23,445 nt of DNA, taken from positions 1-23,445 of the IMG/VR virus record IMGVR_UViG_3300032356_000013; one strand, given 5' to 3'. Shown in pieces: positions 4,469-8,940 of this stretch. Within the stretch, counting starts at the first letter, position 1. Every line of letters starts with the position of its first letter. The position numbers and the translations under genes are program-made. Origin of the DNA: a virus. Under the pieces are notes generated by a model, which ran no database searches, was not told where the DNA came from, and saw only the letters and a list, made by a program, of their open reading frames with translations.

Positions 4469-4984
4469 ATGGGTTCCCTGCTCGACATGGAGATGGAGCC
4501 GTTCCTCCTGTTCGGCTTCCCCGAGTACCGCGACGACGCAAGCTACATCATGCTCGCCAACGAAGCCACCGAGGCCTTGTGGGCGGCCCGTGGCTCCATC
4601 AAGGGTCCGGTGGAGTCGGTTCTGGTCGAGGTGCCCTACATCGAACTCCTCGATCTCTGGGTCATCGATGACGCCAACGTCAAGCTCGGAAAGGATATCG
4701 GCGTCATCACCGCCTGGCGGCTGTGGGACTACGGCGTGGACGAGGAAGCCGACCTGGAGCGGAAGTTCACGACCGGAGCCTGCTCCTCGTTCGACTACGT
4801 CCGGCTGGAACTCGCGAAGAACTCCGGCGGTTACGAGTTTCGCGCCGTCGGCTTCGGCGATTACGAGGGCATCAAGGGCGGCGCGTACGAGCGGACCGTT
4901 TGGGTGCCGCTGGAAAAGCTGTCCGATGCGGCGGCAAAGACGGCCAAGCAGGCACGGGAGAAGGAAAACTTCTCGGAGGATTGA
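4469..4984 (+). CDS. Hypothetical protein, 171 residues
   Basis: ATG 4469 follows a GAGGGGAGG ribosome site. The acidic protein looks globular, alternating predicted strands and helices (FLLFGFPEYRDDASYIMLANEATEALW; VESVLVEVPYIELLDLWVIDD), and ends in a charged helix (SDAAAKTAKQAREKENFSED). No cysteine motif, P-loop or membrane segment is seen. Its TGA overlaps the ATG of the PAPS-reductase-like gene (TGATG), so the two are translationally coupled and may act together. I do not recognise the family. Confidence 0.7.
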   Translation: MGSLLDMEMEPFLLFGFPEYRDDASYIMLANEATEALWAARGSIKGPVESVLVEVPYIELLDLWVIDDANVKLGKDIGVITAWRLWDYGVDEEADLERKFTTGACSSFDYVRLELAKNSGGYEFRAVGFGDYEGIKGGAYERTVWVPLEKLSDAAAKTAKQAREKENFSED

Positions 4985-5814
4985 TGCGGATTCTCAACCT
5001 CGGGGCCGGAGTGCAGAGCACTACCGTGTACCTGATGGCCAACTCCGGAGAGATCCCGGCATACGACTGCGCCATCTTCGCCGACACCGGCGAGGAACCG
5101 CAGGCCGTCTACCGCCATCTGGACTGGTTGCTCAGCCTCGGCGGGATCCCGATACTGATCCGCAGCGCCGGGAAACTTGGCGAAGACCTCGTCCAAGGCC
5201 GCAACAGCACGGGCGGCAGGTTCGCCGCAATTCCTGCCTATGTGGATCATGGATCCGGGCGGCGCGAGGGGCGCGGGCGGCGGCAATGCACTCGCGAGTA
5301 CAAGATCGACGTCATCGAGCGCACGATCCGCCGCGAGCTGCTGGGACTCAAACCGCGTCAGCGCATCCCGAAGGGCGTAATGGTAATGCAGGCCTATGGC
5401 ATCAGCATCGACGAGGCGGGCCGCAGCAGGCGGATCCGGGAGCGCATCCGCAGGCACAGCCCGTGGATCATCCCGGAGTTTCCGTTGCTGGACCGGTTGA
5501 TGAGCCGGGCGGACTGCATCCGCTGGCTGCAAAGCCGTGTGCCGCACGAGGTGCCGAAAAGCTCCTGCGTATTCTGCCCGTACAAGTCGAACGAGCAGTG
5601 GCGATGGTTGAAGGACAACGACCCGGAGGGCTGGGCGCGTGCGATCGAGATCGATGAAGCCCTGCGAAACGGAGCCGTAGCCGCAAGGGGCATGAAGGGC
5701 CGCCAGTTCGTCCACCGCTCCTGCGTCCCGCTGGAGGAAGCGGATCTCGGAGCCGGTTCCAATCCGGGGCAGTTGTCGTTCGCCTTGGAATGCGCCGGGA
5801 TGTGCGGCGTTTAG
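4984..5814 (+). CDS. PAPS-reductase-like / N-type ATP pyrophosphatase protein
   Basis: A 276-residue protein. It starts LNLGAGVQSTT (residues 4-14), the nucleotide-binding loop of the adenine nucleotide alpha-hydrolase (PAPS reductase) superfamily, then DTGEEP (34-39). QCTREYKI (101-108) and the cysteine set CVFCPYKSNEQW (C195, C198) with ECAGMCGV at the end (C270, C274) match a large phage family annotated as phosphoadenosine phosphosulfate reductase. The family activates a substrate with ATP or transfers sulphur. DndC of DNA phosphorothioation is a distant relative, but the true phage substrate is not established. Here it overlaps the stop of the upstream gene and precedes a GNAT-like gene and a DNA methyltransferase, which fits a nucleic-acid modification role. 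True sulphate assimilation seems unlikely. Confidence 0.85.
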   Translation: MRILNLGAGVQSTTVYLMANSGEIPAYDCAIFADTGEEPQAVYRHLDWLLSLGGIPILIRSAGKLGEDLVQGRNSTGGRFAAIPAYVDHGSGRREGRGRRQCTREYKIDVIERTIRRELLGLKPRQRIPKGVMVMQAYGISIDEAGRSRRIRERIRRHSPWIIPEFPLLDRLMSRADCIRWLQSRVPHEVPKSSCVFCPYKSNEQWRWLKDNDPEGWARAIEIDEALRNGAVAARGMKGRQFVHRSCVPLEEADLGAGSNPGQLSFALECAGMCGV

Positions 5815-6308: not shown

Positions 6309-6342
6309 GGAGCACGCATATGGTGTGGTTGAGGGAGGATTG

Positions 6343-7494
6343 ATGTGGCTCTACGTTCCCTTTCCCTGTGCTCCGGAATCGGAGGACTCGATATCGCAGT
6401 CGACATCGCCTTGGGAGGCGTTCGCCCGGTCTGTTACGTCGAACGGGAACTCCCCGTCGCCCGCATTCTTGCGCAGCGCATGGAAGAAGGGTGCCTTCCT
6501 CCCGCTCCGGTTTGGAGCGATCTCGCAACGTTCGATGGATGCCGCCTGCGAGGCCTGGTGGACGTCGTTACGGCAGGGTTCCCGTGCCCGGATTACAGTT
6601 TCGCCGGGAAGCGGGCTGGTCGATTCGGAAAGCATGGCCAGGTCTGGGATCTCGTCCTCAAAGCGGTTCGCGACGTGGAACCCGCAATCATCGTGCTGGA
6701 GAAAGTGGCCGGAATCCGGACTCCTCATCGCAATGGACATGCAGGACTCTGGCATGTTCTCGGAGACCTGGCCGAGAGCGGGTACGATGCGGAATGGCTG
6801 TGCCTTCGAGCGTCCGATGTGGGAGCGCCGCATTACCGCGACCGGTGGTTCTGCCTCGCATGGCGAAAGCATATGGCCGACCCCGATAATGAGAGCGGGT
6901 GGATCAGGCAAGACGCACAGATCTCTTATCCAGGAGGCGCAATCCTGGCCGGAGCCGCCTCTGCGATGCAAGGAGCGCACAAATTGGCGGAACTCTCCGA
7001 TGGTTCCCTGCTGGACGACACCGACGCTGGACGACGTGAACAACATCACCCGGAAGAGCGGAATGCAGAAATCGCTGGCCAGGGATGCGTACCAGTGGCA
7101 GATGCCGGAGTCGGACAACCCGGTGAAGATGTTCCCTACTCCGTCGGCGCGGGACGCGAAGGGCGAGAACCATGTCCGCCATCTGGCGGTGGCCCGGGGC
7201 AGGAAGCACATGGATCAGCTGCCGAACTTCGTAGCTTACTCGGATTCTTCCCCCCAGCGCCTGATGAGTTCGGACGGTGGGCAGAAATCCTCGAGCGGTT
7301 CCCCTGCCTTGCTCCGGCGGTTGAACCCGGCTTTCGTTTCGTGGCTGATGGGACTGCCGTGGTGGTGGACGCAGCCCGGGCTGCTCAGCTTCGCGCCCTC
7401 GGAAATGCAGTCGTACCTCTCCAGGCTGCGGTCGCTGTGCGAGAGCTTCTGCGGCGTTCCGGCATCATCATTCAGGGAGTTCAGCCATGACTGA
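6343..7494 (+). CDS. Overlapping-frame protein with WPTP and LNPxFVxWLMGLP motifs
   Basis: The same DNA as the C5 methyltransferase read in another frame: 383 residues from ATG 6343, two bases before the methyltransferase GTG and served by the same GGAGG. It stops four bases after the methyltransferase. From about residue 98 it carries recognisable family features: SGISSSKRFATWNP (101-114), MFSETWPRAGTMRNGCAFERP (138-158), IWPTPIMRAG (177-186), MFPTPSARDAKG (263-274) and LRRLNPAFVSWLMGLPWWWT (324-343). I recall this pattern in many phage proteins found at methyltransferase loci. A nested start at 6634 (286 residues) is possible. The first 97 residues show no family look. Function is unknown; whether it is translated here needs proof. 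Confidence 0.5.
   Translation: MWLYVPFPCAPESEDSISQSTSPWEAFARSVTSNGNSPSPAFLRSAWKKGAFLPLRFGAISQRSMDAACEAWWTSLRQGSRARITVSPGSGLVDSESMARSGISSSKRFATWNPQSSCWRKWPESGLLIAMDMQDSGMFSETWPRAGTMRNGCAFERPMWERRITATGGSASHGESIWPTPIMRAGGSGKTHRSLIQEAQSWPEPPLRCKERTNWRNSPMVPCWTTPTLDDVNNITRKSGMQKSLARDAYQWQMPESDNPVKMFPTPSARDAKGENHVRHLAVARGRKHMDQLPNFVAYSDSSPQRLMSSDGGQKSSSGSPALLRRLNPAFVSWLMGLPWWWTQPGLLSFAPSEMQSYLSRLRSLCESFCGVPASSFREFSHD
6345..7490 (+). CDS. DNA (cytosine-5-)-methyltransferase
   Basis: A 381-residue protein, GTG start at 6345 with GGAGG at 6334-6338. Family motifs appear in order: motif I SLCSGIGGLDIA (7-18), motif IV GFPCPDYSFAGKR with catalytic Cys81, motif VI LEKVAGI (118-124, where most members have ENV), motif VIII APHYRDRWFCLAW (161-173), and motif X LRALGNAVVPLQAAVAVREL (349-368). 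The stretch between (about 178-320) is the variable target-recognition region and is rich in Asp, Gly and Ala. It methylates carbon 5 of cytosine in a specific short sequence; the target cannot be read from sequence. The Lys in place of Asn in motif VI is unusual. The entire gene is overlapped by another open frame (6343-7494), and its stop overlaps the next ATG. Confidence 0.88.
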   Translation: MALRSLSLCSGIGGLDIAVDIALGGVRPVCYVERELPVARILAQRMEEGCLPPAPVWSDLATFDGCRLRGLVDVVTAGFPCPDYSFAGKRAGRFGKHGQVWDLVLKAVRDVEPAIIVLEKVAGIRTPHRNGHAGLWHVLGDLAESGYDAEWLCLRASDVGAPHYRDRWFCLAWRKHMADPDNESGWIRQDAQISYPGGAILAGAASAMQGAHKLAELSDGSLLDDTDAGRREQHHPEERNAEIAGQGCVPVADAGVGQPGEDVPYSVGAGREGREPCPPSGGGPGQEAHGSAAELRSLLGFFPPAPDEFGRWAEILERFPCLAPAVEPGFRFVADGTAVVVDAARAAQLRALGNAVVPLQAAVAVRELLRRSGIIIQGVQP

Positions 7495-7729
7495 TTTCAA
7501 CCACGGTGACTCGTACCGACTCCGGGCGCTGGGAGTGTCAGCGGATCCGGATGAACTGCGAATGATAACAAGCGAAGAATTTCTCAGAGCCTGCCTGAAC
7601 GCGCTGTTCAACGTGCAGCGGGAGAGGAACGAGGCGCTGGCCGCGGCAGCCCGCTGGCGCAGACTGTTCTGGCTGTGCGCAGCGGCCTTGGTCGCGGCGG
7701 TTACGGGGAAATTGACATGGTGGACATGA
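7487..7729 (+). CDS. Small protein with C-terminal membrane segment
   Basis: An 80-residue protein starting at ATG 7487, inside the ends of the two upstream frames (ATGACTGA), so it is coupled to them. A soluble, acidic N-terminal half (DPDELRMITSEEFLRACLNAL) leads to a charged helix (VQRERNEALAAAARWRR) and one hydrophobic segment (LFWLCAAALVAAVTGKL). It would be a tail-anchored membrane protein with the N-terminus in the cytoplasm. I do not recognise the family. Confidence 0.6.
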   Translation: MTDFNHGDSYRLRALGVSADPDELRMITSEEFLRACLNALFNVQRERNEALAAAARWRRLFWLCAAALVAAVTGKLTWWT

Positions 7730-8940
7730 TGAGAGACAGGGAGCGTCTGGAACGGTTCATCCGCGAAGCGGCGGACGAGGACGAGCTGCAGGCCGTGCTG
7801 GACCACCGGTACGGCGGAAGCATTGAACGCTATCTGAAGTCCATGGATCTGCAGTCGGGCGAAGACCTGGATGCGCTGATCGAGGACTGGGGCGGGGAAA
7901 CCAACGCCAGGCGGCTCGTCTACGACTCCGTCCACGAGGACTTCCGCGACCTCGAGGAGACGCTCGAGAAAGAGCGGCGGCGCAAAGAGATCGAGGAGGA
8001 AGAAGACCGGCAATGGGAGGCCTACCGCCGCCTGGTCGTGCCGCTGATGGAGCAGGCCGTGCAGTATGCGCGCCGGCATCCGGAGGTCTACTCGATCCGG
8101 GAGAACGAATCGAGCGTCTACATCTACGGCCCGGCGGGCAACATCCGGTTCAGCGATCATCCGCAGAAAGCCGATTACGACAGTCATGGACGCCCGATAG
8201 TGCGCGGCGGTTGGGCGAAGCGGGGCGAGCTGTGGGCGGGCGACTACTACCCTCCGGCGGATTACTCGCTCGATCCGTCCAACGCGGACAAGATCGACTG
8301 GGAAGACGTGCTGCGGTGGCTGGAAACCATCGCTGAAGACGAGGATCCGCAGCAGAGGCGCAACCCGCCGCACTGGGCTTCCATTCGCATTCCCACCACG
8401 CACTGGGGCTGGGTCGTCGACGGCAAGGTCTACGATTTCCTGACCCACGAGCCGGAGGACGGAGCCGGCACCTGGGATCACGGGCAGGCGGCCCAGTGGC
8501 TCATGGAAAAGAAACCGGAGCTGGCACGCCGCACGCTGGAGATGATCCGCAAGCTGCCCGGCGGCTCGGGCGTCCGATCCCTCGACGACCTGCACTGGCA
8601 GTCGTCCCTGTTCATCGGATTCGAACATGCCGGCGCCGTCCGATTCCTCGTCCAGCCACCGGTGCTCGAGATGACCACCGCGTTCCTCGACGACAGCCGC
8701 TTCCGCGAAAAGATCCGGAACCTATCCTACGCCATGCGCTCGCTGGCCCGGCACGCAGAGCAGGGCGGCTACGTTGAGTTCAGCGTCGGAGGCTCGGTCA
8801 AGGGAAGCGATATCAAGGTTTCCCGCAGCTACATCCTCGATTTCAACAGCCGCGCAGAGCTGGTCGAGGCCGCCGGGCAGCTGGAGGTCATCGACCGCAA
8901 GTCCAAACTGGCCGCATGGCTCAAGGCGAAAGGCGCTTGA
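7717..8940 (+). CDS. Large hypothetical protein, 407 residues
   Basis: Starts at ATG 7717 (MVDMMRDRERLERFIREAAD) with GGGGAA upstream; the open frame above it lies inside the previous gene. It overlaps that gene by 13 bases. Residues 1-105 are highly charged and helical, ending in a coiled-coil-like stretch (RDLEETLEKERRRKEIEEEEDRQWEAYRR). The middle (about 110-260) holds tryptophan-rich segments (HWASIRIPTTHWGWVVDGKVYDFL) and the C-terminal part is mixed, with FVEFSVGGSV-like strands near 365. No catalytic motif is evident. Its end is four bases from the recombinase start. Function unknown. Confidence 0.7.
   Translation: MVDMMRDRERLERFIREAADEDELQAVLDHRYGGSIERYLKSMDLQSGEDLDALIEDWGGETNARRLVYDSVHEDFRDLEETLEKERRRKEIEEEEDRQWEAYRRLVVPLMEQAVQYARRHPEVYSIRENESSVYIYGPAGNIRFSDHPQKADYDSHGRPIVRGGWAKRGELWAGDYYPPADYSLDPSNADKIDWEDVLRWLETIAEDEDPQQRRNPPHWASIRIPTTHWGWVVDGKVYDFLTHEPEDGAGTWDHGQAAQWLMEKKPELARRTLEMIRKLPGGSGVRSLDDLHWQSSLFIGFEHAGAVRFLVQPPVLEMTTAFLDDSRFREKIRNLSYAMRSLARHAEQGGYVEFSVGGSVKGSDIKVSRSYILDFNSRAELVEAAGQLEVIDRKSKLAAWLKAKGA

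Follow-up and report, generated by a model that had tools for sequence, protein, structure and literature searches.

Can the same stretch of phage DNA, read in two frames of one strand, encode two full-length proteins, and if so, what would the second contribute beside a C5-methyltransferase? The window, an IMG/VR virus record of 23,445 bases, raises this question because two plus-strand frames are open over the same ~1.15 kb (6343-7494), as an earlier note made from the sequence had described. One is a C5-methyltransferase frame (M) and the other (W) lies +1 relative to it. Also as described there, the two starts lie within two bases of each other, overlapping as ATGTG behind one Shine-Dalgarno sequence (GGGAGG), and the frames end four bases apart, M at 7490 and W at 7494. 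The W frame is free of stops upstream as far as 6325, and the third frame has 9 stops at this locus. The parts of the locus, in window positions, are:

6333 to 6338, plus strand: Shine-Dalgarno sequence GGGAGG, common to ATG 6343 (W) and GTG 6345 (M); coupled starts are found in the family
6343 (ATG) to 7494, plus strand: W frame, proposed specificity subunit, 383 aa, with core, cassettes and motif IX
6345 (GTG) to 7490, plus strand: M frame, catalytic subunit of a C5-methyltransferase, 381 aa; motifs I-VIII and X present, motif IX absent
6360 to 6392, plus strand: M motif I (LSLCSGIGGLD)
6570 to 6608, plus strand: M motif IV (TAGFPCPDYSFAG, catalytic Cys)
6687 to 6713, plus strand: M motif VI region (IIVLEKVAG; ENV in relatives)
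6760 to 6798, plus strand: W core SETWPRAGTMRNG, a predicted beta hairpin, opposite M motifs VII-VIII
6801 to 6851, plus strand: M motif VIII region (CLRASDVGAPHYRDRWF)
6874 to 7011, plus strand: W cassette 1, WPTP cap at 6874-6885 (ADPD in the M frame)
7012 to 7131, plus strand: W cassette 2, WTTP cap
7132 to 7230, plus strand: W cassette 3, of family 0 (FPTPSARDAKGEN...RKHMDQLPNF), the commonest cassette
7315 to 7374, plus strand: W motif IX (RRLNPAFVSWLMGLPWWWTQ; contains LNPAFVSWLMGLP), directly 5' of motif X in the M frame
7380 to 7418, plus strand: M motif X (AAQLRALGNAVVP)

Both translated frames were searched, as the earlier note had proposed. M matches PF00145 (2.2e-25), with M.HhaI and M.HaeIII among its PDB relatives. 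W matches phrog_1008, which is named 'DNA methyltransferase' (E = 1.6e-21, residues 83-350 of the 389-aa W translation), and has no Pfam, NCBIfam or solved relative. The WPTP, SETWPRAGTMRNG and LNPAFVSWLMGLP motifs that the note had ascribed to a phage protein family at methyltransferase loci were all found in W, and the DNA of WPTP does read ADPD in the M frame. Its statement that M holds all main C5 motifs stands for motifs I-VIII and X but fails for motif IX, which is absent from the M polypeptide of the window and is carried by W; that the second frame would supply this motif, together with putative recognition cassettes, had been missed. Among the features present in the window M (motifs I, IV (PC), VI, VIII and X), motif VI reads EKV, versus ENV in the closest relatives (L009, L010 and L011). 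The change may weaken catalysis or stem from a sequencing error, and this copy of M may be impaired.

The simplest objection to a second gene is that only M is coding, W being open and similar between relatives as a result of high GC content and a conserved M, and the database entries of the W family being artefacts. In the window alone, 3.3 W stops are expected under synonymous shuffling and none is seen (P ~0.01); because this is only modestly unlikely, the case rests on the relatives, across which the evidence is overwhelming. For 69 non-redundant loci selected by M alone, synonymous codons were shuffled within each M gene. The M-selected sample comprised the best 80 matches to an alignment in which dual-coded members were included, and the test excluded loci whose M ORF is broken. 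The W frame of these 69 loci contains 71 stops versus 360 expected, the third frame, as a control, 944 versus 939, and 34 loci are without any W stop (0.7 expected). The deficit extends along the gene: over 81 loci, there are 28 W stops versus 189 expected opposite motifs I-VIII and a single one versus 98 between motifs VIII and X, where the cassettes lie. Canonical C5-methyltransferases from the same hosts, searched in 20 genomes, have W-frame stops at expectation, and W was not found in them. A codon-bias or GC artefact is ruled out by the synonymous shuffles and the third-frame control.

Similarity of the W proteins was assessed with a leave-out profile, trained only on loci whose M is <50% identical to that of the target and compared with 100 synonymous shuffles each. 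The real W outscored all 100 shuffles in 116 of 116 loci, the window W reaching 262 bits versus 93 ± 13 for its shuffles (Z = 12.7). When only the part of W opposite motifs I-VIII was scored, 67 of 81 loci beat every shuffle (window Z = 4.4), and this test attributes about two thirds of the N-terminal similarity of W to M, as a by-product. The fact that synonymous shuffles of M still reach ~90 bits against the W profile, like the high GC content, favors the reading in which M alone is coding. But stops and profile scores lie far outside the shuffles down to 37% GC, the cassettes are conserved only in W, W outlives M at several loci (see below), and canonical methyltransferases are without W; we consider this reading hardly credible. 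The suspicion that many database entries are frame artefacts was likewise not borne out, since the W frame is under selection family-wide and phage homologues do not break it freely.

Comparison of homologous loci frame by frame, another check that had been suggested, revealed purifying selection on the second frame. Close homologues, found in scans with the window proteins, have a W identity of 76-78% versus 75% for M. The window diverges from L009 or L010 by about 0.19/0.11/0.20 at positions 1, 2 and 3 of the M codons (0.20-0.21 at the third), versus 0.07/0.07/0.20 for the neighboring gene at 7717-8937 in the same comparison. In motifs I-VIII and X, M is better conserved than W against L009, L010 and L011, whereas in the region between VIII and IX the order is reversed (W/M conservation 0.73/0.59, 0.58/0.52 and 0.58/0.42, respectively); M is open through the cassette region of the window, yet less conserved there than W. 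Across 42 disjoint locus pairs, conservation over motifs I-VIII is 0.83 for M and 0.66 for W, and in the cassette region 0.48 for M and 0.51 for W. Because regional conservation differs by frame, M and W hold their important residues mostly in different places. Overall, this is a same-strand overlapping gene pair selected in both frames, with stops avoided and conservation beyond what the other frame demands, which upholds the first of the note's two readings, an extreme overlapping pair, the translation of W being predicted from stop avoidance and conservation across relatives.

The region of W between the core and motif IX is a string of units that begin with WPTP or one of its variants and have a median length of 37 aa. 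A census counted 492 units across 149 proteins, most of which have one to seven; the units fall into at least 33 families and form 132 distinct neighbor pairs of 180. Repeats of the same family inside one W are rare (3 versus 26.6 expected, or 0 versus 7.5 with family 0 excluded), and cassettes 90-96% identical sit in enzymes that share only 29-45% identity in their catalytic domains. Such patterns show that cassettes are shuffled between phages. For 80 disjoint cassette pairs from distant loci, identity is 0.75 in the W frame, 0.39 in the M frame and 0.40 in the third frame, with divergence of 0.24/0.18/0.52 at W codon positions; these pairs were chosen by W similarity, which inflates the W identity but does not affect the equality of the M and third frames. 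This equality points to a cassette region in which only the W frame is conserved and M needs only to stay open. The cassettes, shuffled and not repeated, lie between motifs VIII and IX, where one-piece enzymes have their target-recognition domain, and they may bind DNA.

In 146 of 160 resolvable loci, motif IX (LNPxFVEWLMGxPxGW) is read in the W frame and motif X in that of M. The DNA order of motifs I-VIII, recognition region, IX and X is that of an ordinary C5-methyltransferase, with the recognition region and IX displaced to the +1 frame, so the simplest reading is that M catalyzes and W recognizes. The M frame holds both IX and X in actinophages and in some AT-rich phages, and in actinophages sometimes the cassettes too. 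In the AlphaFold model of a single-frame relative, which matches M.HhaI, the C-terminal IX-X segment packs on the catalytic domain with pLDDT mostly ≥90. The six best PDB matches of an IX-X profile are plant C5-methyltransferases, with the alignment running from 'L.P..vE.l.G.P' through to 'GN' (best E = 0.02); this match is weak by itself, though consistent with the other evidence for a motif IX in W. In a whole-profile PDB search of fused relatives, the alignment stopped short of motif IX. Modeled alone, W gave pLDDT 60 and pTM 0.26 and no fold match among PDB structures, and the cassettes are disordered in the model of the fused relative as well. A profile match to MS2 coat protein (E = 3e-5 on a tandem-fused chain, ≥0.03 on single chains and ~0.7 for domains) was dismissed as chance.

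The lack of a detectable fold or of a family of known function, and the extension of the full-length W even over the region of motifs I-VIII, would also suit a W that is a real overlapping gene but an independent phage protein, e.g., an anti-restriction or DNA-binding protein, and not a methyltransferase subunit. We find this unlikely because W bears the motif IX that M lacks, directly 5' of motif X, because the M frame of actinophages has IX fused to it, at times along with the cassettes, because motif X is fused to W in L207 and L208, and because all 48 of 48 bacterial-genome loci with W also have M (including Acinetobacter, Pseudomonas, Clostridia and Planctomycetota records). The same association holds in viruses: at 80 viral loci picked by the W pattern, M is in the -1 frame in practically all, and at the best 80 loci picked by M alone, W is present in nearly all, over 37-71% GC.

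Several loci at which the two frames come apart are informative. In L211 and L230 (Alphaproteobacterial MAGs) and L219 (a proteobacterial MAG), M has a stop at the same place just past motif VIII and more stops through the cassettes, and its frame is open again for motif X; W is intact in all three. In L207 and L208, M ends past motif VIII, and W bears both IX and X. These loci indicate that W is maintained where M is not, contrary to the possibility of a second frame under no selection. L207, L208 and also L222 have motif X in the frame of W, an arrangement that resembles the M.AquI split but includes a long overlap.

How the two frames would be expressed is suggested by their starts. The W start is offset from that of M by -5 (ATGACATG), -2 (ATGTG, as in the window) or +4 (ATGAATG) at 91 loci, ~70% of those scored. 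In relatives with motif IX in the M frame or with a W that starts past motif VIII and holds IX and X, the number of W stops over motifs I-VIII moves back toward expectation (96 versus 134 and 35 versus 42 expected, respectively). That the DNA keeps motifs I-VIII, IX and X in collinear order, though not in one frame, and that single-frame versions exist, could also be explained by programmed frameshifting from M to W after motif VIII and back before motif X, yielding a single polypeptide. Such a reading requires two shifts, and it leaves unexplained the coupled or internal start of W's own, the W half upstream, which is kept open and conserved over motifs I-VIII where a frameshift product would not need it and is not kept in the internal- or fused-W classes, and an M that is open through the cassettes in most loci; we judge it decidedly unlikely. 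Two separately initiated proteins are favored, because of the coupled starts, the conserved upstream W and the stops that return elsewhere.

The reading that we consider probable is a two-subunit C5-methyltransferase in which the DNA of the catalytic subunit also encodes, overprinted, the specificity subunit with its cassettes and motif IX. A single ribosome site followed by two overlapping start codons would yield two proteins from the same DNA. M would fold as the large catalytic domain (motifs I-VIII and X) with SAM binding and the catalytic Cys, and W would bring motif IX and the WPTP-capped cassettes, at the target-recognition position between VIII and IX. The two would assemble into one methyltransferase in which W positions the DNA and picks the targets, probably one sequence per cassette, and M carries out the methyl transfer. 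In this way, the phage probably shields its own DNA from host restriction, and cassettes may be gained and swapped to track new restriction enzymes. With somewhat less confidence, though still on balance, we favor the broader proposal of a large and widespread phage class in which a multispecific recognition subunit, made of freely exchanged ~37-aa cassettes and motif IX, is fully overprinted on the catalytic subunit, so that new specificities would arise by cassette swaps in one frame while the catalytic protein is kept open in the other.

An alternative frame of the M.EcoHK31I gene encodes the small subunit of that enzyme. In this two-chain C5-methyltransferase, the large subunit has motifs I-VIII and X, and IX is on a second, smaller polypeptide (PMC3404938, PMC3439449), the same division as between M and W of the window. 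But here W spans the whole M gene, starts 2 nt apart from it, is of equal length and has shuffled cassettes in the recognition region. In addition, the predicted TRD of M.EcoHK31I was placed on its large subunit (PMC3404938), which counts against the recognition role proposed for W. M.AquI, like M.EcoHK31I an experimental precedent for a two-chain C5-methyltransferase, is an alpha/beta split enzyme: the break follows motif VIII, and the beta subunit holds both IX and X (PMC3404938). Some relatives (Ryadel gp8/gp7, L265 and L313) are split similarly, whereas in the window motif X stays in the catalytic frame (7380-7418); IX and X are both on W only in some relatives, e.g., L207 and L208. The C5-methyltransferases of Bacillus phages SPR, SPbeta, phi3T and H2 are multispecific, with tandem TRDs (PMC8936443). 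They resemble the present pair in having several exchangeable modules in tandem in a phage enzyme, if the W cassettes do recognize DNA, but the W modules would be on a separate protein in a second frame, have the WPTP cap and comprise at least 33 families. Another phage methylase gene with a second coding frame in it is that of gp65, where the ShiLan domain, a mobile insertion, holds the gene of a hidden HNH endonuclease (PMC11855218); unlike this domain, W is not an insertion. An insertion element of this type was rejected for W, which has no HNH domain and whose overlap covers the whole gene. The present pair departs from the precedents in its complete overlap with coupled starts, in having a cassette system in the second frame and in its breadth, and no description of a phage arrangement of this kind was found in the open-licence literature, an absence that is not proof.

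The family includes single-frame, split, embedded and fully overlapped forms, so that the full overlap is one end of a continuum. As for stand-alone members, whose absence the earlier note would have held against a second gene, no W wholly separate from M was found, and the closest are partly overlapping split pairs, e.g., Ryadel gp8/gp7. In the Acidovorax phages Alfacinha1 and Alfacinha3, both frames are full length, and the annotated 'cytosine-specific methyltransferase' is the W frame. Depositors of Paenibacillus phages annotated both frames, one of them as an 'internal gene'. GenBank records of fully overlapped pairs name one frame only, either W (L001, L002 and L346) or M (L341 and L342), and the annotated frame is called methyltransferase or hypothetical protein. 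The database problem thus runs opposite to the one that had been suspected: annotators keep one frame at random and label it methyltransferase. The phrog_1008 profile, of which the window W is a member, consists of W plus motif X from fused relatives; it is without catalytic motifs I-VIII, as is W itself, so the name 'DNA methyltransferase' is misleading and describes the neighbors.

If the proposal is true, few complete same-strand gene overlaps in bacteria and their viruses would be longer or more widely conserved than this one, which extends over phages and prophages across many host phyla and 37-71% GC. It would resolve the database muddle over which frame is 'the' methyltransferase, and phage methyltransferases expressed from one frame alone may seem inactive or be assigned the wrong specificity. 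Programmable cytosine methylation could draw on the cassettes as a natural parts list, and the restriction-evasion arms race would be recorded in them. Additionally, the single-frame, split, embedded and fully overlapped relatives would let the birth of an overlapping gene be traced directly.

A few further loci deserve mention. One close relative (L021:2488-2628) has lost nearly the whole pair through a single internal deletion, across which the remaining ends are still in frame for M as well as for W. Seven loci (L056, L061, L070, L084, L095, L141 and L172) have one-base changes in mid-gene, which place the second half of W in the M frame and the second half of M in the third frame; these are either sequencing errors or real fused forms. 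Many of the loci come from metagenomic contigs, in which an isolated frame break may be a sequencing error. Finally, a PAPS-reductase-like gene (phrog_424) is found near the methyltransferase in the window (4723-5814), as in the Alfacinha phages and mycobacteriophage ShiLan (L001, L002 and L006), and the two genes possibly form a conserved DNA-modification neighborhood.
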